From a virus, in IMG/VR virus record IMGVR_UViG_3300044682_000024, positions 1-35,873 of that record: DNA of 35,873 nucleotides, one strand, 5' to 3'. The translations under genes and the position numbers were made by a program. Shown here one piece after another: positions 2,919 through 23,998 of this stretch. How positions within the stretch are numbered: the first letter of the stretch is position 1; each line of letters starts with the position of its first letter. The notes beneath the pieces were generated by a model. The model searched no databases. It saw only the letters and a program-made list of their open reading frames with translations, and was not told the origin of the DNA.

Positions 2919-3187
2919 CCATCCGAAGCGGCATTGTTGGCAAGACGGGGCGTGTGCGGCTCAAGGGTAAGGCTATGGATGCCCTTCGCTGGCGAGTCTT
3001 TCATCGGGACAACTGGCAGTGCCAGGAATGCGGACGGGAGTGCTCATGGGAAGCTGGCCACCTTGCGCACATCAAGAGCCGTGGCGCCGGCGGTTCGGAT
3101 ACGGAAGAAAATACGCGGCTGCTTTGTATGGCATGCCACCAAGCGGAGCACCACCCAAAGGCAGTCCCGAGGAAGCCATATGCGTAG
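2915..3187 (+). CDS. HNH endonuclease
   Basis: 90 aa. A complete HNH/treble-clef nuclease: CQECGREC (first zinc knuckle), then GHLAHIKSRGAGGSD with the first catalytic His, then EENTRLLCMACHQAEHH giving the Asn, the second CxxC knuckle and the final His. The N-terminal part (LRWRVFHRDNWQ) is the usual lead-in helix. Small HNH enzymes assist terminases in many phages, but this one sits in the early region next to a second nuclease, so a recombination, replication or defence role is equally possible. ATG overlaps the previous stop by 4 bases. Confidence 0.85.
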   Translation: MTIRSGIVGKTGRVRLKGKAMDALRWRVFHRDNWQCQECGRECSWEAGHLAHIKSRGAGGSDTEENTRLLCMACHQAEHHPKAVPRKPYA

Positions 3188-3584
3188 GGAATCTAAGGCA
3201 CAACGCGCCGCCTGGACTTCCCACTTCGAGGGAGCGGCGCCGAAGGTCAAGCGCCCCCGGGTATCCCTGCCCAAGGTGCCCAGCAAGGGCGAGCAGGCCT
3301 TTGCGCTGCACTGCCAAGTCAAGCTGCACCCCTGCAATCAGCCAGTCAGGGAGCATGTCTTTCACCCCACACGCAAGTGGAGGATAGACTTTTCGTGGCC
3401 GCATCTGAAGCTCGCTGTCGAGATCGAATCCAGCGTGCACCGCATCAAGAGCAGGTTCGCCTCAGACATCCCCAAATACAACGAACTCCAGAAGCAGGGA
3501 TGGACACTTTTGCGCTACACGCGGCAGATGGTGGAGGCGGGAACGGCTATCAATGACGTGATTGAGGTAATGGGCATCTTATAG
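3180..3584 (+). CDS. Vsr/DUF559-like PD-(D/E)XK endonuclease
   Basis: 134 aa. The core reads KWRIDFSWPHLKLAVEIES: an Asp in RIDF, and about 10 residues later a strand ending E-I-E, the D...ExE form of the PD-(D/E)XK active site. FASDIPKYNELQKQGW and TLLRYTRQMV follow, as in very-short-patch-repair and DUF559 nucleases, where a helix with DxxKYN precedes a W-x-LLRYT strand. The N-terminus is basic. It overlaps the HNH gene by 8 bases. Likely a structure- or mismatch-directed nuclease in phage recombination; the substrate is unknown. Confidence 0.75.
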   Translation: MRRESKAQRAAWTSHFEGAAPKVKRPRVSLPKVPSKGEQAFALHCQVKLHPCNQPVREHVFHPTRKWRIDFSWPHLKLAVEIESSVHRIKSRFASDIPKYNELQKQGWTLLRYTRQMVEAGTAINDVIEVMGIL

Positions 3585-3599
3585 CGATGAGGTACCAAA

Positions 3600-3755
3600 A
3601 TGCTCGGCACAATCCTGCTCGTGTTTTCTTTCGTTCTGCTCGCACTTGCCGCTTTCAACGTTCCTTGCCCACCGCGTTTTAACCTGGGATGGGCTGGAAT
3701 GGCTTGCTACGTACTTTCCTTGCTGGTGGGATCGTTTCACGTGGGGATGCGCTAG
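3600..3755 (+). CDS. Small two-helix membrane protein
   Basis: 51 aa, below common size cut-offs but convincing. It starts MLGTILLVFSFVLLALAAF (first membrane helix), has a short polar turn (NVPCPPRFN), then a second helix LGWAGMACYVLSLLVGSF. GAGGT lies about 8 bases before the ATG. It is the last gene of the plus-strand operon and its TAG is shared with the stop of the opposing operon in one CTAG. Size and topology would fit a holin-like or superinfection-type protein, but no such function can be assigned. Confidence 0.7.
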   Translation: MLGTILLVFSFVLLALAAFNVPCPPRFNLGWAGMACYVLSLLVGSFHVGMR

Positions 3756-3955
3756 AACCTGCTCGCTATCTGAGCGGCATCCTCGCTAGTGCAATGGCCG
3801 GTGTAAAGCAGGATAGCCGTCTCCGGGTCCACAAAGGGCGGCCAGGGCTCGCCGTGCTCCAGGATCAGGTTCACCCGCCGCTGGAAGCTGTAGAAGACAC
3901 GGTATGCTGTCAATTGCAGGGTTCCTGCGGTGATCTCGATGCGCTTGTCTGTCAC
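3752..3955 (-). CDS. Hypothetical small protein (last of the minus-strand cluster)
   Basis: 67 aa from GTG, not recognised. It reads TDKRIEITAGTLQLTAYRVF and later PETAILLYTGHCTSEDAAQI, with a mixed alpha/beta look. Two starts compete: ATG at 3961 has AGAGG only one base away, while the GTG at 3955 has the same AGAGGA at proper spacing and forms a GTGA overlap with the upstream stop, so GTG is preferred. The stop TAG overlaps the stop of the converging plus-strand gene. Confidence 0.6.
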   Translation of the reverse strand: MTDKRIEITAGTLQLTAYRVFYSFQRRVNLILEHGEPWPPFVDPETAILLYTGHCTSEDAAQIASRF

Positions 3956-4191
3956 TGGCATTCCTCTTTCATCGATCGTATGAGGTTTTTCCACTGGCAT
4001 GCATAGCAGAAGGAATGAGCATTGAGCCCCTTGACCTTCTGGCAGCGCTTGCACTTGCGGTGGGTCATTCCATAGGCCAGCACGTAAGAGAAGCGTCTGA
4101 CCCCCTTCCATGCTCCGCGGCGAGCCAATGTGGCAATCATCTTGAGGGAGCGGCGGATATCCTTGAGAACGCGCTTAGGGGAATCGGTCAT
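3952..4191 (-). CDS. Hypothetical protein with C-terminal zinc-binding motif
   Basis: 79 aa. Basic N-terminus (MTDSPKRVLKDIRRSLK) followed by a putative zinc knuckle: HRKCKRCQKVKG and SFCYACQW give two CxxC pairs. An excellent AAGGAG precedes the ATG at 4191; the upstream in-frame start at 4218 is rejected. The first 19 codons are almost identical to those of the 29-codon reading frame at 4738-4827, part of a 60-bp duplication. Role unknown. Confidence 0.65.
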   Translation of the reverse strand: MTDSPKRVLKDIRRSLKMIATLARRGAWKGVRRFSYVLAYGMTHRKCKRCQKVKGLNAHSFCYACQWKNLIRSMKEECQ

Positions 4192-4192
4192 T
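4133..4192. repeat. 60-bp direct repeat, copy 1
   Basis: Positions 4133-4192 match 4769-4828 at 59 of 60 bases (T at 4140, C at 4776). The repeat covers the start codon and the first 19 codons of the 79-aa gene. It indicates a recent duplication of a gene's 5' module within the cluster. Confidence 0.9.
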
Positions 4193-4210
4193 TTTCTCCT
4201 TTGCTGCCCA

Positions 4211-4408
4211 TCAAGCACGTCCTGTAATGGAATTCAACTTCAATGCGTAAGCTCCAGTCACCAGTTCTGCGCCGGGGTAGGAAGCGCTTATCTTCAGAAC
4301 CGTGAAGCCTTTCTGCTCACGATCAAGAACAACCCAGTATCGATCGCTGGTGCCATCTCGCCGCGCGTTCTCGCGAAGTTCTTTGGTGAAGCGGGGTTTA
4401 TTGGTCAT
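4211..4408 (-). CDS. Hypothetical small protein
   Basis: 65 aa, not recognised: MTNKPRFTKELRENARR at the start, then SDRYWVVLDREQKGFTVLKI, giving a likely helix followed by beta strands. AGAGAGG sits 6 bases before the ATG inside the tail of the upstream gene, and start and stop overlap as TAATG. That junction (4403-4429) is repeated exactly at 4822-4848 in front of another gene. Confidence 0.6.
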   Translation of the reverse strand: MTNKPRFTKELRENARRDGTSDRYWVVLDREQKGFTVLKISASYPGAELVTGAYALKLNSITGRA

Positions 4409-4429
4409 TATGGCCTCTCTGGAGCCGTT
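4403..4429. repeat. 27-bp gene-junction repeat, copy 1
   Basis: Identical to 4822-4848. On the minus strand it encodes the C-terminal TAPERP-stop of one gene, the ribosome-binding site AGAGAGG and the ATGACC start of the next gene. It is a portable end/start cassette. Confidence 0.9.
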
Positions 4430-4737
4430 TCGTCTACGTCTTGCTTAGCCTCTTCCTCGGTCAATTCAACGTCTGGATATGGAGGCGGATCGTCGGCTGG
4501 CGCGTGGGCCAACTTGCTCCACTCTACCTGCTCCCGTTCCATCATCAGAGCCATACGCCTAGCCTCAGTGATCTGATGGTCTTCGCGGTTATTCTTGCCG
4601 GTAATGATGCGAGCCTCGATCCATGCCCTGATTACCATCGGAGCACAAACATCGCGTCCCAATAAAACGAAGGTTGGTTCGTCTGGGAAAGCCTTGGACA
4701 TGCATCCGGCTTTGAGTTCGATGAATTTACGGGCCAT
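4408..4737 (-). CDS. Hypothetical phage protein
   Basis: 109 aa. The N-terminal half reads MARKFIELKAGCMSKAFPDE then PTFVLLGRDVCAPMVIRAWI and EARIITGKN..DHQITEARR; the wording FVLLGRD..AP..IRAWI recurs in phage accessory proteins of unknown function. The C-terminus is acidic and Pro-rich (ADDPPPYPDVELTEEE) and probably disordered, ending TAPERP. It begins immediately after the TAA of the tiny frame upstream. I cannot assign a function. Confidence 0.65.
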   Translation of the reverse strand: MARKFIELKAGCMSKAFPDEPTFVLLGRDVCAPMVIRAWIEARIITGKNNREDHQITEARRMALMMEREQVEWSKLAHAPADDPPPYPDVELTEEEAKQDVDETAPERP

Positions 4738-4827
4738 TTACCACCTCACCAGTTCGTAGACAGCTGCCGCAATCACCTTGAGGGAGCGGCGGATATCCTT
4801 GAGAACGCGCTTAGGGGAATCGGTCAT
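4738..4827 (-). CDS. 29-aa peptide, truncated paralogue of the 79-aa protein
   Basis: Starts MTDSPKRVLKDIRRSLKVIA, identical to the 79-aa protein for 17 residues, then continues AAVYELVRW and stops. The last part resembles the membrane-anchor ending VIGAAIWEIVKW of the protein at 5021-5272, so this may be a chimera of two neighbours. It has the full junction ribosome-binding site (AGAGAGG) and TAATG overlap. Either a real micro-protein or a duplication remnant; I cannot decide. Confidence 0.4.
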   Translation of the reverse strand: MTDSPKRVLKDIRRSLKVIAAAVYELVRW

Positions 4828-4828
4828 T
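4769..4828. repeat. 60-bp direct repeat, copy 2
   Basis: Second copy of 4133-4192, offset 636 bases, one mismatch. It overlaps the 27-bp junction repeat at its right edge, so a start-of-gene module and a junction module abut here. Confidence 0.9.
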
Positions 4829-4848
4829 ATGGCCTCTCTGGAGCCGTT
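4822..4848. repeat. 27-bp gene-junction repeat, copy 2
   Basis: Exact copy of 4403-4429. It encodes the TAPERP end of the 66-aa protein and the start of the 29-aa frame on the minus strand. Confidence 0.9.
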
Positions 4849-5027
4849 ACGGTTATGTCGTAATGGTCGATCCCAAAGCCAAGGACAGCGAAGATGGCTG
4901 CCGTGAAGTATGCTGCATCCTGTTCCCATCCAGAACGCTCTTCATCGCGCTTTGTAGCCGCGATCCGCAGGCAGTTTTCTCGGCGCTCTTTAAGCCATTC
5001 GACCAAATCATGCTCGGTGATCACCAT
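4827..5027 (-). CDS. Hypothetical small protein
   Basis: 66 aa: MVITEHDLVEWLKERRENCL then RIAATKRDEERSGWEQDAAY, then a moderately hydrophobic FTAAIFAVLGFGIDHY. Predominantly helical; the last helix could contact the membrane but is short. GGGAGA lies 9 bases before the ATG at 5027, which decides this start over in-frame codons at 5042 and 5069. It overlaps the upstream gene by 7 bases. Not recognised. Confidence 0.6.
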   Translation of the reverse strand: MVITEHDLVEWLKERRENCLRIAATKRDEERSGWEQDAAYFTAAIFAVLGFGIDHYDITVTAPERP

Positions 5028-5272
5028 TTGACTATCTCCCATATAGCGGCGCCTATCACCCCAAGCCAAAGCAAGCGCATCAGGAGCTGGGCTGAGTGCT
5101 TCCAGAAATCCAGGCGCACCTGCAGGGCATCACGCTCGCGGAGTACGTTTTCGAGGCTATACCGAACCTCGGCGTGTTCGCGGCGATCTGCGGGTCCGGT
5201 GCGGCGCTCGGTGATGTATTCGCGGCCATCGACCTCGCGGAAGCGGGGCATTGGAGCTAATAGTTTGTTCAT
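5021..5272 (-). CDS. Small tail-anchored membrane protein
   Basis: 83 aa. Residues 20-60 are a charged, probably coiled-coil region (RREHAEVRYSLENVLRERDA); the C-terminus is a single hydrophobic helix SAQLLMRLLWLGVIGAAIWE ending IVKW. This is a cytoplasmic coiled coil with a C-terminal membrane anchor. ATG overlaps the upstream TGA (ATGA). The coiled-coil/anchor layout resembles some spanins or holin partners, but no lipoprotein partner is visible and no function is claimed. Confidence 0.6.
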   Translation of the reverse strand: MNKLLAPMPRFREVDGREYITERRTGPADRREHAEVRYSLENVLRERDALQVRLDFWKHSAQLLMRLLWLGVIGAAIWEIVKW

Positions 5273-5415
5273 GGCTGCTCCTTTGCGCCTGCGAGGGCTG
5301 CTTTGGCAATGATTGGACAGCTAGGACAGTGAGGGCAAGACACGATCCTCCGGAGTGCAAGCTCTAACGCATAGATCCGAGCACACATTAACCTAAACTG
5401 TTGCGCATCGCTCAC
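5269..5415 (-). CDS. 48-aa Cys-rich small protein
   Basis: Starts at GTG (GTGA overlap with the upstream stop) with GGAGG 7 bases before it: SDAQQFRLMCARIYALELAL, then CPHCPSCPIIAKAALAGAKEQP. The CxxCxxC cluster may bind a metal. Longer in-frame starts run into the 138-aa gene and lack a ribosome-binding site. The end AALAGA is shared at DNA level (5284-5301 and 5433-5450, 17 of 18 bases) with the upstream gene's end. Confidence 0.55.
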   Translation of the reverse strand: MSDAQQFRLMCARIYALELALRRIVSCPHCPSCPIIAKAALAGAKEQP

Positions 5416-5825
5416 TTCGTAGCCTCCTTCTGTGCGCCGGCGAGGGCTGCGTCTACTGTTGCGATTTCGCAGATACAGGCGCCAACCGTAACACTGCCGT
5501 CCTTGTGCCATTTTTCGGTGGGGTTCACCTTAACGCAGTTGTAACTATGAGACATCCTCCCCCTTGCAATCCTGAGCGCCTTCTCTAGCTCCTGCACACG
5601 CCGGGTGAGGCGCTCATGGTTGTTGACCGCTTCGACGATGAACGCGGCATTGGCCTTCGCTACCTCTAAGTCCATACTGCTGCGCGATTCTAGATCGCAA
5701 TCACAGATGGTTTCGTAGTACCCTCGCCCGTAATCAGGCCCATCGATATTCCCGATCACATACCAAGGCTCGTGATCGGGGTGCTTGACTTGCCAAGGCG
5801 TCGGAGTGTGCTTTGTTTCACTCAT
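5412..5825 (-). CDS. Hypothetical phage protein, TPTPW family
   Basis: 137 aa. The opening SETKHTPTPWQVKHPDHEPW and the later ANAAFIVEAVNNHERL are the hallmarks of a widespread family of phage/prophage early proteins (TPTPW..., ANAxFIVxAVN.H). A coiled coil (RRVQELEKALRIARGR) links to a C-terminal part with Cys residues. Function unknown in the family. AAAGGAG is 7 bases before the ATG at 5825 but only 1 base before the ATG at 5831, so 5825 is the likely start. Confidence 0.75.
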   Translation of the reverse strand: MSETKHTPTPWQVKHPDHEPWYVIGNIDGPDYGRGYYETICDCDLESRSSMDLEVAKANAAFIVEAVNNHERLTRRVQELEKALRIARGRMSHSYNCVKVNPTEKWHKDGSVTVGACICEIATVDAALAGAQKEATK

Positions 5826-5843
5826 GGTCATGCTCCTTTCCAG

Positions 5844-5909
5844 TTAACGTGCAGTGTAGAGCGCCGAAGCCACGACAAACAGCAGCAGGTCAATCAGCTT
5901 GGCGGTCAT
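5844..5909 (-). CDS. 21-aa hydrophobic peptide
   Basis: Reads MTAKLIDLLLFVVASALYTAR: a single short membrane helix with basic ends. The ATG overlaps the TGA of the upstream two-helix membrane protein (TGATG), and AGGTGGG lies 4-5 bases upstream. Its location between two well-supported genes with canonical overlap makes it plausible; it is too short for family evidence. Confidence 0.4.
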   Translation of the reverse strand: MTAKLIDLLLFVVASALYTAR

Positions 5910-6211
5910 CAGTCCCACCTTTGCGCGGCGATCTCGGCCAGCTCTTCTTCTGTGCCGGTCCAGCGGTATTTATCAGCTATGGCCCGTTCTACGGCATCTG
6001 AGGCCTCTTGCCGCGCCCGATCCTCGATCCACTGGGCGTTGATCGTACGGGCCATCAGGACAGAGCCTACGATGATCAGGAGCACGATGGTTGCGGTGAT
6101 GAGGTTATCGACATCCCCGGCTTTGGCCTCTACAAACATCCATCCGAGGGTGAGGCCTACGACGACGAGCACGAGGGTGAACCAAGGATTGAAGCGAAGA
6201 TCGAACTTCAT
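5909..6211 (-). CDS. Two-helix membrane protein
   Basis: 100 aa. Two hydrophobic helices: FTLVLVVVGLTLGWMFVEA (about residues 11-29) and ITATIVLLIIVGSVLMARTI (about 38-57), then a charged C-terminal tail (EDRARQEASDAVERAIADKY). GGAGA sits 7 bases before the ATG at 6211, which is preferred over 6241. Topology probably places the tail in the cytoplasm. Not assigned to a family. Confidence 0.65.
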   Translation of the reverse strand: MKFDLRFNPWFTLVLVVVGLTLGWMFVEAKAGDVDNLITATIVLLIIVGSVLMARTINAQWIEDRARQEASDAVERAIADKYRWTGTEEELAEIAAQRWD

Positions 6212-6255: not shown

Positions 6256-6453
6256 TTATACCGGGAAGCCCTGTGGAAGCGGCTCCCCGAAGTGAATAGC
6301 TTTCTCGCGGATGGTGCGCAGGTCGTAGTCGCCGACCAGCTGGTCCTTGAAATTCTTCGATCCGTACTCGTAACGGGCGTTGTTGCAGATGTCGTCGACC
6401 ACATGAGCGATCACCCATCCGAAGAGCATCGTCTTGAGTTTTCCGTAGGTCAT
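6256..6453 (-). CDS. Hypothetical small protein, first of the promoter-driven cluster
   Basis: 65 aa: MTYGKLKTMLFGWVIAHVVD then DICNNARYEYGSKNFKDQLV. The N-terminus is amphipathic; the rest is polar. It has the best expression signals of the cluster: AGGAGG 8 bases before ATG, and a TTGACA-17-TAATCT promoter at 6478-6506, giving an untranslated leader of roughly 20 bases. Function unknown. Confidence 0.65.
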   Translation of the reverse strand: MTYGKLKTMLFGWVIAHVVDDICNNARYEYGSKNFKDQLVGDYDLRTIREKAIHFGEPLPQGFPV

Positions 6454-6477
6454 TGTGTTGCCTCCTGATCTGTACTG

Positions 6478-6506
6478 AGATTACGCGTATGCGAAAAACG
6501 TGTCAA
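6478..6506 (-). promoter_or_regulatory. Sigma70-type promoter of the minus-strand cluster
   Basis: Read on the minus strand: -35 TTGACA (6506-6501), 17-bp spacer, -10 TAATCT (6483-6478). The -35 is consensus and spacing ideal; the -10 matches 3 of 6. It lies in the 56-bp gap between two genes and points at the AGGAGG-equipped gene at 6453. Confidence 0.7.
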
Positions 6507-6509
6507 GCG

Positions 6510-6683
6510 TTATTTCTGCAACTTTCGGGTGATGAACTCTTTTTCTTTACGGGCGGCGCGCCAGTCGCGGATACGTTGCAGCTCACAGATCGAGCAAATA
6601 TTTTGCACTCTGCCAGATGTAGTCATGCGGACCCTGTCCCACTTATGACCCTTGGCGCAAACAGGTGATTTGATGGCTCCCAT
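6510..6683 (-). CDS. Small zinc-ribbon protein
   Basis: 57 aa. CAKGHKW near the N-terminus and ICSICELQR about 20 residues later form a CxxxH...CxxC zinc-ribbon pattern, followed by a basic helix (RDWRAARKEKEFITRKLQK). Such basic mini-zinc proteins are common in phage early regions and may bind nucleic acid. Start uncertain: the ATG at 6683 has GGGGAG very close; a GTG at 6692 is also in frame. Confidence 0.6.
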   Translation of the reverse strand: MGAIKSPVCAKGHKWDRVRMTTSGRVQNICSICELQRIRDWRAARKEKEFITRKLQK

Positions 6684-6690
6684 GCTCCCC

Positions 6691-6720
6691 ACTCTACCCG
6701 ATATGTATTATGCGTGTCAA
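6691..6720 (-). promoter_or_regulatory. Weak promoter candidate
   Basis: Minus strand: TTGACA (6720-6715) followed at 18 bp by TAGAGT (6696-6691). The -35 is consensus and shares TTGACACG with the stronger promoter at 6506-6499, but the -10 is poor. If used, the transcript would begin almost at the start codon of the zinc-ribbon gene. Confidence 0.3.
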
Positions 6721-6722
6721 CA

Positions 6723-6845
6723 TCAGCGTACCTTCTTCGAGCTCCAGATAGCAATCAAGTTCGAGCGCAATCCCTCGGCCACCAAATTTATTTTGGTCTG
6801 CACCATGAGTACTGCCTGCTTCGGCTTGGGCGGCGACTGCTTCAC
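6723..6845 (-). CDS. Possible 40-aa basic peptide
   Basis: GTG start; the peptide is Lys/Pro-rich at first (KQSPPKPKQAVLMVQTK) and then INLVAEGLRSNLIAIWSSKKVR. It fills the gap between two small minus-strand genes without overlap. ACGGGG lies too close to the GTG for a good site. There is no family evidence and the opposite strand also has an open frame, so it is only a candidate. Confidence 0.3.
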   Translation of the reverse strand: MKQSPPKPKQAVLMVQTKINLVAEGLRSNLIAIWSSKKVR

Positions 6846-6865
6846 GCCCCGTTAGATGCGCAAAG

Positions 6866-6997
6866 TCACTTCGGGGGATTCATACGCGCCTGCCGCTGGC
6901 GTTTAAGTCGTTCTATTTCTTCTAGTTTCATTAGCTTATCCAGCTCGCGCCGATCGTAGTCTTCCTTATTCATTGCATAGCCCTGGGGGGTTGTCAT
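6866..6997 (-). CDS. 43-aa charged helical peptide
   Basis: Reads MTTPQGYAMNKEDYDRRELD then KLMKLEEIERLKRQRQARMN, a strongly charged single helix or coiled coil. It is the outermost gene of the minus-strand cluster. TACAAT lies 6 bases before the ATG, so a transcript from it would be leaderless; an internal ATG at 6973 has a moderate AGGG upstream. Unknown function. Confidence 0.5.
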   Translation of the reverse strand: MTTPQGYAMNKEDYDRRELDKLMKLEEIERLKRQRQARMNPPK

Positions 6998-7024
6998 GCG
7001 GTAATTGTAGAGCACAGACACCAA

Positions 7025-7045
7025 AGCCCACCGGAGAGGTGGGCT
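7025..7045. other. Perfect 8-bp stem-loop
   Basis: AGCCCACC (7025-7032), loop of 5, GGTGGGCT (7038-7045). There is no run of T after it on the plus strand and only TTTGG on the minus strand, so it is not a clear intrinsic terminator. It lies upstream of the first minus-strand gene, where it could be a transcript boundary or a 5' leader structure. Confidence 0.6.
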
Positions 7046-7093
7046 GTAGTGCCAAAAGGAGTTCGCTTCTACCGCTGCCAGGCTGCAGATGCA

Positions 7094-7123
7094 TTTACAG
7101 GATAAACAAAACTAGGTTATATT
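7094..7123 (+). promoter_or_regulatory. Rightward promoter candidate for the intergenic RNA / late operon
   Basis: TTTACA (7094-7099), 18-bp spacer, TATATT (7118-7123); each box matches the sigma70 consensus at 5 of 6. Transcription would begin near 7130 and run through about 650 nt without a convincing gene before the 7781 gene. It lies within an AT-rich island in a GC-rich genome. Confidence 0.5.
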
Positions 7124-7149
7124 TGCAATAGCCAGGTTATACATTTGCA
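7114..7149. repeat. Tandem direct repeat AGGTTATA(CA)TTTGCA
   Basis: AGGTTATATTTGCA (7114-7127) and AGGTTATACATTTGCA (7134-7149), starts 20 bases apart, about two helical turns, differing by a CA insertion. The copies contain the -10 elements of the facing promoter candidates, so they may be operator sites on one DNA face. Confidence 0.55.
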
Positions 7150-7163
7150 TAAAACCCCGACAA
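7136..7163 (-). promoter_or_regulatory. Leftward promoter candidate for the minus-strand cluster
   Basis: Minus strand: TTGTCG (7163-7158), 16-bp spacer, TATAAC (7141-7136). The -10 matches 5 of 6 and the -35 4 of 6. It points toward the gene at 6997, crossing the stem-loop at 7025-7045, and its -10 lies in the second direct repeat. Confidence 0.4.
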
Positions 7164-7183
7164 TTCGAATCTTTCCGGGCTCA
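7164..7183 (+). other. tRNA 3'-end-like motif, possible attachment core
   Basis: TTCGAAT (7-base T-loop form), CTTTC (5 bases), CGGGCTC (7 bases) and A reproduce the spacing of a tRNA 3' half from T-loop to discriminator base. The preceding GACAA does not pair with CTTTC, and no matching acceptor 5' strand exists nearby, so this is not a tRNA gene. Temperate phage attP cores often carry such tRNA 3' ends. No integrase is seen in the window. Confidence 0.25.
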
Positions 7184-7736
7184 TGCATTCGTGTGTTTTG
7201 GCGTGTCTACGAAAGTGGGCAGGCGCGGTTGATGGCTTTTGGGCCACGGAGAGCGCCAGCATCACCTCTGACCAATGCCTAAACTCACAGCGCACGACGA
7301 AGCTGTGAGCAGTGGTTTGAGGCGCGGAATGAACCTTATTGGCCCGCTGTATCGCGGGTGGGTATCGAAGGGGAACCATGAGAGTCACAAATCCGCTCAC
7401 GCGGTCGGGGTTCGGCCCTATCTCAACTTACTGGTCACACTCATGCAGGCCAGATAAGCGAGCTAAAGCCGCCAAGATGGAGCCTGTCAGGAGCTCTGAT
7501 GCCCGTACGTCCCCCTCCTTGCTCTGTATCGTTCCGGCTTCTTCTCTCGGGCTCAGACAGATCTCCGTAACCACTGAACGCGGCATGGGCTGGACAATCG
7601 GGGCCAGCGGACAGGTGAGCCAACGGGCGCTCTGGCGACAGAGTGAGCGGCCCTGTCCAGGATCGGTGGCACAATGACCTGATTACAGACACAAAAACTT
7701 GGCGCGTAAGTCCTTTATTTTACGGTTGAAACCACT

Positions 7737-7748
7737 GCTACGCGTAGC
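7737..7748. other. 12-bp perfect palindrome GCTACGCGTAGC
   Basis: A fully symmetric 12-mer located 33 bases before the ATG of the first late gene. It could be a protein-binding site or a leader hairpin; no second copy was noticed. Confidence 0.4.
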
Positions 7749-7780
7749 GGGAAGGCTCCGGGTTTGCCTATGGAGGAGAG

Positions 7781-7999
7781 ATGGAGATTGGAGATAGGGT
7801 AGTGCGCAAATCCAGCGAGAGGAAGGGGTATATTCACGACCTTAAGGATGGGAGAGTTGCGATGGTCAAGGTGAGGTGGCTCGATGACAAGTCAGAGGAC
7901 TGGATGCCGACGGAAGAGTTGAGAGAATGGGACAAGCAGGCGATCCCAATGCAACACAAGAGGGCGAGATGGCCAAGAAGAAGTCGTGGAAAAAGTTGA
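7781..7999 (+). CDS. Hypothetical small beta-barrel-like protein
   Basis: 72 aa. The first 50 residues (EIGDRVVRKSSERKGYIHDL, then VAMVKVRWLDDKSEDWMPTE) have the short-strand layout of SH3/KOW/Tudor-like barrels; the C-terminus is very basic (RARWPRRSRGKS). GGAGGAG precedes the ATG directly. It is the first gene of the rightward structural operon. DNA- or RNA-binding is possible but not shown. Confidence 0.6.
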   Translation: MEIGDRVVRKSSERKGYIHDLKDGRVAMVKVRWLDDKSEDWMPTEELREWDKQAIPMQHKRARWPRRSRGKS

Positions 8000-8193
8000 G
8001 ACCCGATAGCAACCAAGAGCTCGAGGATGATCTCCACGCTGAGCGACGTCTCACGGCTGACTGGTACGACCGCATGACTGGATCAATCAATTGGATGGAA
8101 GGGGAGAAAGAATCCGTGATGATCCAAATGGATGCCATATCGGAACGGATCAATGCGATTATCGCCAACAATCGCCAACTTGATTCAAACTAG
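7969..8193 (+). CDS. Hypothetical coiled-coil protein
   Basis: 74 aa: a basic start (MAKKKSWKKLRPDSNQELED) and a long charged helix (DLHAERRLTADWYDRM... ISERINAIIANNRQL). GAGGG is 5 bases before the ATG at 7969; an in-frame start at 7927 is possible but would enlarge the overlap with the previous gene from 31 to 73 bases. It lies just upstream of the small terminase; role unknown. Confidence 0.55.
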   Translation: MAKKKSWKKLRPDSNQELEDDLHAERRLTADWYDRMTGSINWMEGEKESVMIQMDAISERINAIIANNRQLDSN

Positions 8194-8207
8194 GGTAAAA
8201 TCCCCTC

Positions 8208-8654
8208 ATGCCTACAGGTAGACCTTGTTCATGGACTCAGGAACTCGAAGACGAGATACTCCTGCGTCTGTCTCATGGAGAGCCACTGACCAAGATTTGC
8301 CAGGACCAACATATCCCCGCAGAATCAACGATTTATCGGTGGGAAGATCATGTTGAAGGCTTCTCAGAGAAAGTCACACGCGCGCGGGAACGAAGCGCAG
8401 ACCATTATTCCCATGAAATCATAGAGATAGGTGACGAATTAACGGTGATGGAGGTACCTTCTCCTGACGGTGGAGTGACGCTCCGTGTTGACCCCGGCGC
8501 CGTGCAGCGCAACAAACTGCGCATTGAGACCCGCATCAAGCTCATGCAGATGCTCAAGCGCAAGACTTATGGCGAAAAGGCAGAGGTTGCAGTGACCGGC
8601 AAAGACGGCGGCCCGGTCGAGTTTATTACGAAAAGCATCCTCGATAAGCAGTAG
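8208..8654 (+). CDS. terS: Terminase small subunit
   Basis: 148 aa. The N-terminal domain reads GRPCSWTQELEDEILLRLSH then GEPLTKICQDQHIPAESTIY and RWEDHVEGFSEKVTRARER, the helix-turn-helix DNA-recognition pattern of the phage small-terminase family with Tyr/Trp after the recognition helix. The ADHYSHEIIEIGDE segment and the RIETRIKLMQMLKRKTYGEK helix match the oligomerisation part of the same family. It recognises packaging sites on phage DNA and delivers them to the large subunit encoded 2 kb downstream. Confidence 0.85.
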   Translation: MPTGRPCSWTQELEDEILLRLSHGEPLTKICQDQHIPAESTIYRWEDHVEGFSEKVTRARERSADHYSHEIIEIGDELTVMEVPSPDGGVTLRVDPGAVQRNKLRIETRIKLMQMLKRKTYGEKAEVAVTGKDGGPVEFITKSILDKQ

Positions 8655-8716
8655 ATGGACGCTGAGATGGATCTGATTAGGGCTGAGCAATAAATAATCA
8701 TGCTAATATTTGAGCC

Positions 8717-9064
8717 ATGCCAGCCTTTCTTAGTAATCCCCAGCCGACGCAGCTTATCGCTCTCTACCCAGGCGACTCGATCCCCTTGGTGAACAATGCC
8801 GCAGTCGATAGCGGCATCACCCAGACGCAGCAGGTTGCGATAGGTCCGGTACCTGGGAACTCGGTTGGTAACGTGGTGATCAACAACTCCACCAACCAGA
8901 CGGCTACAGCCCTGCAGTGCTCGACGCCGAACGGGATCTATGAGGCCTTAAGCCAGGGAACAGTGACAGCTGGAGAGTCGCTGCCTTACAACATGAGCGG
9001 CGGATGGCTGTGCTTCAGCTTCGGAACTGCCCCGACCTCCGGCAGTCTGATCGTGACCCGATGA
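8717..9064 (+). CDS. Small beta-rich structural-type protein
   Basis: 115 aa, not recognised. Ser/Thr/Asn/Gly-rich with alternating strands (VVINNSTNQTATALQCSTPN, ESLPYNMSGGWLCFSFGTAP) and two Cys; no signal peptide. The pattern suits a small virion decoration or fibre-associated protein. The ribosome-binding site is weak (TTTGAGCC), while an AT-rich stretch with TAATAT (about 8702-8707) upstream may be a promoter. TGA overlaps the ATG of the SGNH hydrolase gene. Confidence 0.6.
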   Translation: MPAFLSNPQPTQLIALYPGDSIPLVNNAAVDSGITQTQQVAIGPVPGNSVGNVVINNSTNQTATALQCSTPNGIYEALSQGTVTAGESLPYNMSGGWLCFSFGTAPTSGSLIVTR

Positions 9065-10767
9065 AGTGGCTGCTGGCGTTCCTCCTCGCGATCCCCGCGT
9101 TTGCTCAGCCCAGCAATCCTGTTAATGGCGGCGGGAGCTCAGGCGTAGCACCCTATCTTGGCTTGGTGGGCACGCGATCGAATATCGCTACGATAACTAC
9201 CACTTCGACTTGGGCTATGGGCCGAACAGCGAGTATCGCTCGGGTCTCCATTCCGGCAAACGGAGCCAGGCCCGTGTTCGCCAATATGTTCGTGACTACG
9301 ACCGGCGTCGAGCAGAATCCAGGCACCACGACCTACAAGATGTCGATAGAGTATCCATCAGGTGTAATTGCTGGCGTGTGTACCTTTGGCGGTCAGCCTA
9401 CGGTCACTGTAAGCACAATGTCTCTGGTAATCCCTGATGCCAACAGCTGTCCTCATGCTGCGATCCCGGCCGGTTCTATGTATTGGGTGAGGGCTCTGGT
9501 CCAGAACGCTGCCGGTATTCCCTACACTTCCGGCCTGCAGCCCAACTCCTTTTCTTTCACATTTGACGGCCTTATGCTTGGAACGGGAACACCGACAGAC
9601 AACACCACATCGGGAACGGTTGTCTATAGCTCAGGGTCTGTCACGAACGTGCAGCTACCCCCTGTCGCCATCATCGGTATGACTACAAGCCCATCGGTTT
9701 GCATCGTGGGAGACAGCAGGGCTCTAGGGATCAAAGATCAGGTCACCGACATCAATTTGGACATTGGAGAGATTGCGCGGTCGATCGGACCCGTCTTCAA
9801 CTACACCAAGATCGCAACCTCAGGAATCACGGCTTTTGCCACAGCTACCAACTTCACCACACGCGAACTGATTGTTAAATATTGCTCTCACGCGATCGAT
9901 GAGCTTGGCATCAATGATTTTGGCATCCTGGGAAGGAATGCGGCTGAGGTAGTGGCATCGCGGTCCGCTCTGGCCGGCATATTCGGTATTCCCACCTTCG
10001 GAACTACGCTGGTCCCGGAGACGGGCAGCTCGAAGAGTTTTGTAGGCTTCACTACCGCCGAGAGCGGATTTACCATGCTCACGGTCACTAGCGCAGCCAC
10101 GTGCACATCGGCGCTTACACCATGCCCAATTACGCCAGGGGACAGTCTTGGCGGCACTGGCCTCTTTGGATCGATTGAATCTCAGATATCCGGCACAACA
10201 GGTGGCACAGGGACATATAGCTGCACATCGAATACGCCCGTGGTCGCGTCAGGTACCTATGGAGCTGTCGACCATTGGTCGTCTACATATGCGCAGCAAC
10301 CCATAGTCTCTGTGGATCCGTTCAACACCCTCGTCAGGCAAGGGATCGCCGGTGAAATGGGGATGTTCGACATTGATATCGTGGTTGACCCTCTAGACCT
10401 GAACCTGTTTCCCGTGGGAGGCCCTATTGTTGACGCGACAGTGGCTGGAATCGGCGTCACCTTAAGCCTTACCAATGGGAGTACGAGCGCGCAGGTGGTC
10501 GGCCATCCAGAGCAATTGGCGTCAGCGTCGGGAGGTCAATTCATCTCGTGCCCGGCTCAGGGTCTGGCCACTACGGTTTCGGCCATTGAGTCATTTCAAA
10601 CCGGATCCATCATTCTTTCCGCAGCCCCCACGGCAAGCTCGGGCTCAGCTGTCTGCACGATGACCGGATTCAATGAGACCCTTGATGGCGTGCATGAATC
10701 TCCGTATCTGCTTCAAGCTATTGCTCGCTCAGGGATTATCGACACTAGCCGGATTTTCATCAAATAG
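9061..10767 (+). CDS. Secreted SGNH/GDSL-family hydrolase
   Basis: 568 aa. Starts with a Sec signal peptide MKWLLAFLLAIPAFA followed by Q (predicted signal peptidase I cut after residue 15). Residues 30-200 are a Thr/Ser-rich beta domain. The SGNH blocks follow: GDS in CIVGDSRALG (217-219, nucleophile Ser), G-I-N-D at 283-286 (oxyanion Asn), and the terminal D542-G-V-H545 pair for the catalytic Asp and His. Such enzymes de-esterify polysaccharides or lipids, here probably acetylated surface glycans. An insertion with several Cys lies between blocks III and V. The start at 9061 forms ATGA; an upstream start at 9004 would mask the signal peptide. Its place between the two terminase genes is unusual. 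Confidence 0.8.
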   Translation: MKWLLAFLLAIPAFAQPSNPVNGGGSSGVAPYLGLVGTRSNIATITTTSTWAMGRTASIARVSIPANGARPVFANMFVTTTGVEQNPGTTTYKMSIEYPSGVIAGVCTFGGQPTVTVSTMSLVIPDANSCPHAAIPAGSMYWVRALVQNAAGIPYTSGLQPNSFSFTFDGLMLGTGTPTDNTTSGTVVYSSGSVTNVQLPPVAIIGMTTSPSVCIVGDSRALGIKDQVTDINLDIGEIARSIGPVFNYTKIATSGITAFATATNFTTRELIVKYCSHAIDELGINDFGILGRNAAEVVASRSALAGIFGIPTFGTTLVPETGSSKSFVGFTTAESGFTMLTVTSAATCTSALTPCPITPGDSLGGTGLFGSIESQISGTTGGTGTYSCTSNTPVVASGTYGAVDHWSSTYAQQPIVSVDPFNTLVRQGIAGEMGMFDIDIVVDPLDLNLFPVGGPIVDATVAGIGVTLSLTNGSTSAQVVGHPEQLASASGGQFISCPAQGLATTVSAIESFQTGSIILSAAPTASSGSAVCTMTGFNETLDGVHESPYLLQAIARSGIIDTSRIFIK

Positions 10768-12498
10768 ATGGGCAAGCAGGTAATCAGTCTCCTTCAGCCG
10801 AAACAGCTTCTGATCGGCGAATTGATGTACAAGACTGGCAAAGAGGCTGCCACCTGGATTGGTGGTGGCGGGGCCAGAGCTGGTGGCAAGTCTGGTGGTC
10901 TCAGACGCATCATGCTCGACCGGCGCCTGCAACGGCCTGGAACGCCTGGCGTTATCCTTCGGCGGATCTATAAGGACGTAAACGAGAACCACATCCAGAA
11001 ATACTTCGCCGAGTTCCCTGACTTGCTGCCGTACTGGCGTGCGACTGATCAGGAGTTCAGGCTACCTAACAAGTCAAGACTTTGCTTCCGGTATGCCGAG
11101 AACCAGCAGGCGGTCGACCAGTCCTTCTGGGGCCCAGAATGGTACGACATCTTCGTCGATCAGGCCGAGCAGTTCACCGAGCGCGAACTGACGATCATCA
11201 AATCATCGAACCGCTGGCCTGGCGCCCCCATCAACGATTGCAAGACGGCGCTGTTCTTCAATCCTGGCGGGATAGGGACCGAGTACCTTCGCAGGGTATT
11301 CCATCAGAAACGATTCCATGGCAATGAACGGTCTCAGGACTTCGCGTTCGTTCATTTGTTTGGCTGGGATAACTATGTTTGGTTCGAACCTCTTGGGATC
11401 AGCCCTGAGGATTTCTATGCGATGCCTTCGATGTGCGCTCGGACGGAAGGGGATCAGGACGGATCGTGCTGCCGGTTCCATATGTTCATCTACTGCACGG
11501 CCGAGGGTAGAAAGCTCGATACGCTTCCTCCCAGTCTCCGCGCCGGCCACTTAATGGGCAGTTTTGACTCATTTGCCGGTCAATACTTCGCAGGCGTATG
11601 GGATGAGTCCAAGCTGATCCTCACGGCGTCTCAGGAAGTCAATCTCATACAGCCCTGGTGGGCGCGCTGGATGTCCCACGATGACGGATTCGTGCATCAC
11701 GCCTCAATCGGCTGGTTCGTGAGCGGCAAGGTGTCTCCCAAGCAGTTTCTGGAGGTATTTGGCGTCACGATCACTGACGCAGTGACAGTTGTCATCCTCT
11801 ACCGGGAACTTAACCTTGCCGAGACTGAGCCGGGCGACCTGATCCGCATGGCGCGCAAGGAGACGACCCTGGATGAAGCCAAGACCATGAGCCGGTACTT
11901 TCTCAGCCCTGACGCCTGGGAGAAGGACGCGAAGGGACACAGCGTTGCCGAAGAGATCAGCAGGGAGCTTCTGCGGGTCGAGAATGTGCCGGTTAACGGC
12001 AGAACGCTGCAAGTCACGTTTCCCTACCCGGAGCAAGCCGCCAATGCTCGGATCAGCGGCTGGCGGTACATGTACGCATGCATGAAGAAGACCGGCGATG
12101 TGCTGGGCGGCTGCATGAACCCCACTCGGCAGGATGACGACTTCGAGAAAGAGGGCGGGGGTTACTCTCTGAATACTCCGCTGTTTTTCATCTCTGGAAA
12201 CTGTCGGGAATCCATCGAGGCGATTCCGATGGCGATCCGCGACGACAAGCACGCCGGCCGCTCAGAGGATGTTCTCAAGATGCCAACGCTTTCAGACGAC
12301 ATTCTTGACCGCATCCGGTATGGGCTGCTGTCGATGCTGAACCCGAAATCGACTCCGTTTCCTGTGGTTGCAGCGGAAAAGCGCGTGGAAATGGAAAAAT
12401 CAGGCTTATCTCTGACTGAAGTGGCCATAATGATGCGTAAAATGGAAGCTGATAACAAGCGGAAAGCACGCGGGAAGAAGAGTTCATGGGCAAGATAA
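10768..12498 (+). CDS. terL: Terminase large subunit (packaging ATPase/nuclease)
   Basis: 576 aa, usual length. Walker A is GGGARAGGKSGG (residues 33-44, Lys41-Ser42). Walker B is YDIFVDQAEQF with Asp131 and Glu134, the DQAE form seen in several terminase families. The RNase H-like nuclease begins at SHDDGFVHHASIGWF (Asp305/306 in place of the common D-W-G-F) and ends with DDILDRIRYGL (510-520), typical of the third acidic site. It powers DNA translocation through the portal and cuts concatemers. It starts one base after the SGNH gene's TAG. Confidence 0.92.
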   Translation: MGKQVISLLQPKQLLIGELMYKTGKEAATWIGGGGARAGGKSGGLRRIMLDRRLQRPGTPGVILRRIYKDVNENHIQKYFAEFPDLLPYWRATDQEFRLPNKSRLCFRYAENQQAVDQSFWGPEWYDIFVDQAEQFTERELTIIKSSNRWPGAPINDCKTALFFNPGGIGTEYLRRVFHQKRFHGNERSQDFAFVHLFGWDNYVWFEPLGISPEDFYAMPSMCARTEGDQDGSCCRFHMFIYCTAEGRKLDTLPPSLRAGHLMGSFDSFAGQYFAGVWDESKLILTASQEVNLIQPWWARWMSHDDGFVHHASIGWFVSGKVSPKQFLEVFGVTITDAVTVVILYRELNLAETEPGDLIRMARKETTLDEAKTMSRYFLSPDAWEKDAKGHSVAEEISRELLRVENVPVNGRTLQVTFPYPEQAANARISGWRYMYACMKKTGDVLGGCMNPTRQDDDFEKEGGGYSLNTPLFFISGNCRESIEAIPMAIRDDKHAGRSEDVLKMPTLSDDILDRIRYGLLSMLNPKSTPFPVVAAEKRVEMEKSGLSLTEVAIMMRKMEADNKRKARGKKSSWAR

Positions 12499-23167: not shown

Positions 23168-23998
23168 ATGTCTCCTATTCCCGCGCCACAGGCCCTTCCT
23201 CCATATTCAAATTTGGAGATAATCCTGTTTCTTGCGCGGACGCGGATGAATGATGCGATAGCGAGCATCAGCGGTGACATTTTAACGGACCAGCAGCCGT
23301 TTTTTGCCACGATGGTTAATGCCGCGTGGCGCAATCTTCAGACCTACCTCACGAACCTGGGGTATTCCCGCTACAAGCGGAAGTTCTTCGGGTTCGCTCT
23401 GCCCGTTACTGCGACACTTGACCCGTCCCAGCCAAACATCTGGACGTGGTCCTCTTTCTTCGACGGCACCAGCTTTTTCACGCCCCCGACCAGCGTCCTG
23501 CCCAACGACATGATTTCACCGCTGTACTTGCGCGAACGCATCACCGGCAGCAATTCTCAGTTTTCGAAGATGCAGTACATGCCGGATGGTCTGATTGAGT
23601 GCCGCAAGCATGGTTTCAATCGACAATGGGAATGGAAGAACGATTCGATCTACATCCCTGGCTCGCTGTTCTCGATGGACTTCGAGGTTGAGTATGCGGC
23701 CTTCGACGCGGATTTCACCGTTACAGATAACGTTCTGGGCAACCCGAATGCAATCCCGCCGCTGACTCCGAGCAATATGCCGGTACCGATCATGCGATGT
23801 GAATCGGCTTTCGCGAACTTCCTTTGCGCCGAGGCTGGGATGGGCCGGGATGACGTGGATGTACCGACATTCATCGCTGCCGCTCAGAACGATGCAAAGC
23901 TCATCATGAACAACGAAGTCAAGCTCAAGCAACGCACGCCGGTCCAGCGCAGAAGCTATTCCCGGGGCGGCAGTAAATTTTACGGAAATCGATACTAA
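23168..23998 (+). CDS. Head-tail adaptor-type protein
   Basis: 276 aa. It starts with helices (NLEIILFLARTRMNDAIASI ... AAWRNLQTYLTNLGYSRYKR) and continues as a beta domain (WEWKNDSIYIPGSLFSMDFE, VEYAAFDADF) with a Lys/Arg-rich end (RRSYSRGGSKFYGNRY). Helix-bundle plus beta organisation and the place after the coat gene resemble podovirus adaptors (T7 gp11-, P22 gp4-type), which seat the tail on the portal. The assignment is by context and general layout. Confidence 0.6.
   Translation: MSPIPAPQALPPYSNLEIILFLARTRMNDAIASISGDILTDQQPFFATMVNAAWRNLQTYLTNLGYSRYKRKFFGFALPVTATLDPSQPNIWTWSSFFDGTSFFTPPTSVLPNDMISPLYLRERITGSNSQFSKMQYMPDGLIECRKHGFNRQWEWKNDSIYIPGSLFSMDFEVEYAAFDADFTVTDNVLGNPNAIPPLTPSNMPVPIMRCESAFANFLCAEAGMGRDDVDVPTFIAAAQNDAKLIMNNEVKLKQRTPVQRRSYSRGGSKFYGNRY

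Follow-up and report, generated by a model that had tools for sequence, protein, structure and literature searches.

Large structured RNAs encoded by phages are few, and the nearest known kind to the element described here is represented by ROOL and GOLLD, which are large, ornate RNAs of phages and prophages still without a known function (PMC12286853). Like them, the family of loci reported here appears to encode a large structured RNA that is not bound to one protein gene, but its members are shorter (0.35-0.6 kb), are overlapped by a short ORF and are located beside terminase or early regulatory genes. Leader-peptide attenuators, such as the Thr operon leader (RF00506) and the erm leaders, share with the family a short ORF just after the promoter and RNA stems overlapping it. 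In these loci, however, the body is several times longer, no terminator stem was found, and the downstream gene is unconserved and sometimes convergent. The antitermination RNAs HK022 put and EAR are about 70-120 nt long, untranslated, and occupy a phage or operon leader position. The family element likewise lies directly after a promoter, but its members carry an ORF, and no Rfam sequence match was obtained among the members tested. Finally, the mRNAs of hok-type type I toxins, which are stable, structured, and ~400 nt long with pairing between the 5' and 3' ends, contain a short ORF. This arrangement recalls the short ORF and the 5'-3' pairing of the family, whose peptide is, on the other hand, arginine-rich, has no obvious membrane segment and shows unconserved C-termini.

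The window analyzed here is the whole of a 35.9-kb phage contig, an IMG/VR-type virus record from a phage described as soil-type. Leftward genes extend from position ~3.75 kb to 7025, and rightward genes run from 7781 on into the terminase genes (Table 1). A sequence-only reading had described the interval between them as free of genes and rich in stem-loops, and had proposed a large structured phage RNA in the size class of GOLLD and ROOL. No ORF at ~7025-7780 scored as coding by phage codon usage, in agreement with the first of these statements, but a TTG-initiated ORF (7145-7282) was found to correspond in register to a short ORF present in almost all relatives. A rightward promoter-like site was also found at 7094-7123. 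Neither GOLLD nor ROOL matched region 7050-7800 in searches with the Rfam covariance models at E values up to 10, nor did either match the other family members tested (E up to 1 or 10); hence the element belongs to neither. The sole match to the region at this threshold was to sX9, on the other strand and below the cut-off (E 2.3, 16 bits versus a cut-off of 44). Proximity to tRNA islands, a feature of ROOL and GOLLD, does not apply to the window, in which no tRNA genes were found. The RNA family is undescribed, lying outside Rfam, Pfam, and PHROG, and no prior description of it was found in a non-exhaustive literature search. The ORF that follows the element (7781-7999) gave a weak PWWP-like match, under the cut-off.

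Table 1. Features of the window locus and of the proposed RNA element
Feature	Positions	Strand	Remarks
Sigma-70-like promoter, TTTACA-18-TATATT	7094..7123	+	10/12 consensus; expected transcription start ~7130
Proposed RNA element	7128..~7750	+	~620 nt; both ends inferred, 5' from the promoter and 3' from the long-range arm at 7729-7739
Short ORF	7145..7282	+	TTG start, AGG ~9 nt upstream; (M)HKTPTIRIFPGSCIRVFWRVYESGQARLMAFGPRRAPASPLTNA*
Family 5' motif, AAAACCCCGACAATTCG	7151..7167	+	pattern comparison with relatives
Conserved block, CGAAAG...GGCAGGCG.CGG	7210..7228	+	comparison with relatives
Conserved block, GACCAATGCCTAAA	7270..7283	+	GACCAATCGCCTAAA in L051, L057, L103, L108
Hairpin CTCACAG / CTGTGAG	7284..7309	+	directly after CCTAAA; as good in 1/400 shuffles
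Long-range helix, 5' arm, AGCAGTGGTTT	7308..7318	+	corresponds to GTGGTTAA of B1 relatives
Long-range helix, 3' arm, AAACCACTGCT	7729..7739	+	corresponds to TTAACCAC of B1 relatives
Next rightward ORF	7781..7999	+	72 aa, SD GGAGGAGAG, late operon head
Terminase small subunit	8208..8654	+	phrog_1482, E 8e-33
Terminase large subunit	10768..12498	+	phrog_979, E 7e-13

DNA homologues of the window region were absent from phage and plasmid collections, and in phages with related terminase large subunits the gap showed no similarity (blastn, E 0.01). The first lead was a weak match of 45 nt (E 0.001) in locus L036, located within the gene-free gap of that phage. Scanning of viral contigs for the core of this match (AAACCCCGACAATTCG) retrieved L049 and L051 together with chance matches, and wider patterns then gave further loci; the search patterns were partly derived from the window, and the boundaries of the family are therefore biased towards it. 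Chance matches from the pattern scans were dropped after inspection (e.g., L047, L048, L050, L052-L055, L118, L122, L123, L141-L143, and L145). The 5' half of the window element (7126-7321) had homologues at a minimum of 20 distinct loci, all in uncultivated phages. The loci were assigned to type A (L032, L036, L056, and L031), type B (the window, L035, L051, L057/L061, L103, L108, L119, L120/L127, L124, L125, L129, L131, L132, and L135), and type C (L028, L029, L049, L087, L138, L144, L147, and L151), which have only the promoter-proximal part in common. One phage (IMGVR_UViG_3300014658_000002) carries two copies with different bodies, one of B type (L103) and the other of C type (L151). A pattern scan of genomes gave mostly chance matches and a single real one, the C-type element L087, which is on a 5.3-kb contig binned in an archaeal (Methanoregulaceae) peat MAG and likely represents a misbinned phage contig. 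Model R1 found no match among 396 Acidobacteriota genomes, which is weak evidence.

On the basis of these comparisons, we tentatively favour the view that positions 7128 to ~7750 represent a phage transcription unit from an undescribed family, each unit specifying a structured RNA in which a leader peptide is embedded and probably acting in trans. The sigma-70-like promoter would drive an RNA of ~0.35-0.6 kb, in which a ribosome site and a start codon soon after the transcription start would open a short ORF with conserved first 15-20 codons (TPTIR...SRFPLSCAWA). The RNA body would overlap and follow this ORF with conserved stem-loops, to which the B type would add a helix between the middle and the 3' end, and this body may act as RNA. 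Action in trans, for which host translation, packaging, or gene control would be candidate targets, is suggested by the fact that the unit stands alone and has a converging neighbour in two related phages. As for the leader peptide, it might recruit ribosomes to the RNA, time RNA folding, or couple translation to folding or loading. This proposal is based on what the computations show, namely homology, a conserved promoter, the register of the start codons, and helices conserved in relatives. A broader generalization, which we consider doubtful, is that of a phage-specific class of dual-function RNAs, in which one module of promoter and conserved peptide start would be fused to at least three unrelated structured bodies (A, B, and C) acting in trans during infection. 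The family recurs across unrelated terminase types with a conserved peptide start and interchangeable structured bodies, and its loci provide a concrete set for laboratory tests that could show whether ornate phage RNAs are tied to translation.

Sites resembling TTGACA-16/18-TATAAT were detected at the same place in most members, and the promoter matches summed over the window and its relatives amounted to 191, versus 157 (sd 3.9) in same-position shuffles. Members often adjoin terminase or early regulatory genes, and in most of them a co-directional gene with a Shine-Dalgarno sequence follows within 250-730 nt, often heading a terminase or an antirepressor/HTH/ERF operon. This arrangement favours the main rival explanation, a cis-acting leader in which peptide and structured RNA would control read-through or translation of the following operon, either by attenuation or by processive antitermination like that of HK022 put or EAR; the start codon, conserved N-terminal codons, and overlapping stems also correspond to the anatomy of an attenuator. 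Nevertheless, the downstream genes are unrelated between members, comprising a terminase small subunit (window and L035), an AntA antirepressor (L120), ERF recombinase operons (L119), and others. Moreover, the next downstream gene in L051 and L103 is a long ORF on the opposite strand that converges on the element, and this ORF encodes a terminase large subunit in L051 (phrog_5989, E 1.3e-7; 95% identity with the L103 copy). For the family overall, it is therefore unlikely that the element serves purely as a cis-acting leader. At 350-620 nt the element is also long compared with an attenuator, and window positions 6400-8300 yielded no intrinsic terminator. Altogether, we regard control of the adjacent operon as possible but rather unlikely.

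The element was initially read as a purely noncoding leader, which was revised once the start-codon register appeared. In most members, a shared Ser-Cys codon motif is preceded by a start codon at a distance of 36-54 nt. Across 21 distinct loci, the 105 nt upstream of this motif contain 31 ATGs; 20 of them are in the Ser-Cys frame, which is open from every one of these, and 6 and 5 are in the two other frames. Related loci do not count as independent cases here, and conservation of the N-terminal part is also seen at the nucleotide level. The codons of the 5' motif are ACA ATT CGN, and the frame runs on as TIR(F)(T/S)SRFPLSCAWA in many members. When TIR and SC are mutually out of frame (L056, L119, and L124), it is the SC frame that the ATG keeps. 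Exceptions are L036, with an ATG out of frame, and the window, which starts with TTG instead of ATG. The TTG of the window shares the frame of the Ser-Cys codons, like the start codons of relatives (e.g., MAKTPTIRFFSSRFPLSCAWA... in L051), and opens a peptide beginning (M)HKTPTIRIFPGSC... that ends at the stop at 7282. Taken together, these patterns point to probable translation, under selection, of the first 15-20 codons. In the remainder of the ORF, the B1 and C2 pairs showed no codon-position bias, so RNA-level constraint appears to dominate there, and we conclude that this part is constrained mainly as RNA.

The start-codon register and the conserved TIR..SRFPLSCAWA residues would also be expected of a small-protein gene, with a peptide of 45-75 aa as the conserved product (e.g., a host-takeover factor) and an ordinary, long 3' UTR or intergenic DNA as the remainder, and the L049/L147 pair does show a mild third-position excess (12, 8, 18). 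We consider this improbable given the absence of codon-position bias in the other pairs and a C-terminus that is wholly type-specific in sequence and length, with frame-breaking indels (L119). Furthermore, conservation in B1 is the same past the stop codon as within the ORF, covariation is seen in stems located inside the ORF, and the peptide matched no Pfam or PHROG family. A weak protein match (E 0.3-4) to jumbo phages of Salmonella appeared to be fortuitous.

Evidence on the putative RNA role of the body comes from the comparison of members. Immediately after CCTAAA, each B-type subgroup (the window and four others) has a different but complementary stem at the homologous position. In the four other subgroups, shuffled tails gave an equal hairpin in 87, 3, 17, and 3 of 400 cases. 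Several B-type hairpins are capped by GNRA or UUCG loops, and the loops of the family on this same strand include UUCG, GCGA, GCAA, GGAA, and GAAA. In the C type, the shared part is followed immediately by a two-tier stem that persists through different sequences when its arms are placed by hand. The outer stems are CGCUC/GAGCG, CGCG/CGCG, CACGU/ACGUG, UGUG/CACA, and GCGC/GCGC, and the inner ones UCCGG/CCGGA, UUCCGG/CCGGAA, CUCUG/CGGAG, CCGG/CCGG, CCAG/CUGG, and CCUUG/CAAGG. Within B1, the stem formed by alignment columns 168-171/190-194 has double changes and, in L108, a paired deletion of one base on each side. Covariation terms calculated by RNAalifold on MAFFT alignments were weak, and the case for covariation rests partly on the hand-placed arms. 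We take this comparative support for a putative RNA role as good but not final evidence. In addition, GTGGTTAA in the middle of the B1 elements has its complement in TTAACCAC close to the 3' end, both arms being invariant within B1. The window has at the corresponding positions an 11-bp pair of different sequence, and its flanks correspond to those of B1 (GAGGCG after the first arm and CGGTT before the second). Among the distal perfect inverted repeats in the region, this pair is the longest; one as long occurred anywhere in 38 of 1000 shuffles, and 11 bp between the stretches holding the two arms in none of 5000.

Several comparisons link the window itself to the family. Its promoter is followed, ~30-45 nt after the -10 box, by the 5' motif (R)ACAATTCG that defines the family, and it contains the GGCAGGCG block, the GACCA..CCTAAA block, and the hairpin after CCTAAA that define type B. 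With the window left out of its construction, an HMM of B members matched 7126-7284 with an E value of 1.8e-13, whereas the next-best place in the window had an E value of 0.94 and the reversed window gave nothing below 2.2. When the pattern bases were fixed and the rest was block-shuffled, none of 1000 sequences reached the real score of 44.6 bits (mean 14.0, maximum 32.7). Likewise, a covariance model built without the window matched 7166-7321 from end to end (30.1 bits; E 1.8e-5 for a search space of 456 kb), and the next non-member had an E value of 0.29. HMMs made from just two sequences, L051 and L057, for the part downstream of the motif gave no match in the window, which therefore represents a distant member. 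Beyond 7321, the helix from the middle to the 3' end is the one feature that would tie the window to the B1 subtype, and no relative was detected for the 3' body (~7330-7725). These last observations are what would be expected if the window were not a true member, its promoter-proximal sequence having been shared by recombination and the rest being neutral intergenic DNA. We find this quite improbable, as the leave-window-out HMM, the covariance model, and the fixed-pattern shuffle test all support membership, the blocks are collinear up to 7321, and the longest distal inverted repeat of the region falls on the homologous arms. A DNA element conserved through protein binding, such as a packaging (cos/pac) or replication site, would fit the several members that adjoin terminase genes, themselves unrelated, but is very improbable in view of a promoter and start codon conserved in one orientation, strand-specific GNRA and UUCG loops, and members whose neighbours are antirepressor or ERF genes, in the vicinity of which no terminase was found.

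Most of the helices cited in the sequence-only reading are located in the 3' body. All of them are present, namely GCTGG (7589-7593) with CCAGC (7604-7608), GGACAGG (7609-7615) with CCTGTCC (7652-7658) enclosing a GCGA-capped hairpin, and a composite hairpin at 7277-7323. However, the stacked helices (7589-7660, + strand) belong to the part without detected relatives, and the switch proposed between CTGGAC and GTCCAG found no comparative support. Folding beyond chance was not borne out either, with whole-region z values of -0.69 (+) and 0.11 (-) against dinucleotide shuffles and 120-nt windows that fold ordinarily compared to the rest of the genome. Close members with structural conservation had equally ordinary z values (-0.65 to -0.82). 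Folding energy therefore carries no information in this family and was dropped as evidence, the window and its close relatives both having z near -0.7. A rule by which the absence of a folding advantage refutes the RNA, as had been suggested, would alone have sunk the finding. The idea of a large structured phage RNA is thus supported by homology and covariation, but not by folding or by the helices originally cited. The top local folding signals of the whole window in 120-nt windows were outside the element, at 2521-2640 (+, z -5.9) and 23281-23400 (+, z -4.9).

Some additional features were observed around the element. A GC-rich hairpin (AGCCCACC GGAGA GGTGGGCT) is found 5' of the promoter at window positions 7019-7051, and other family members also have a terminator-like hairpin upstream of the promoter. 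A second shared element just 5' of the promoter, TGCGGGGCTGCTC...CCCCGC(A), is a long hairpin-like repeat found twice in L036 (~5895 and 6697), on the reverse strand of L049 (~230), and in L057 (~685). In L061, the large ORF after the first genes of the element and the next large ORF (2978-5920 and 6384-9284) both seem to be interrupted by intein-like insertions, examples of which are CLEPSTPVLTSD... and YCVPLNSEILTRDGW....
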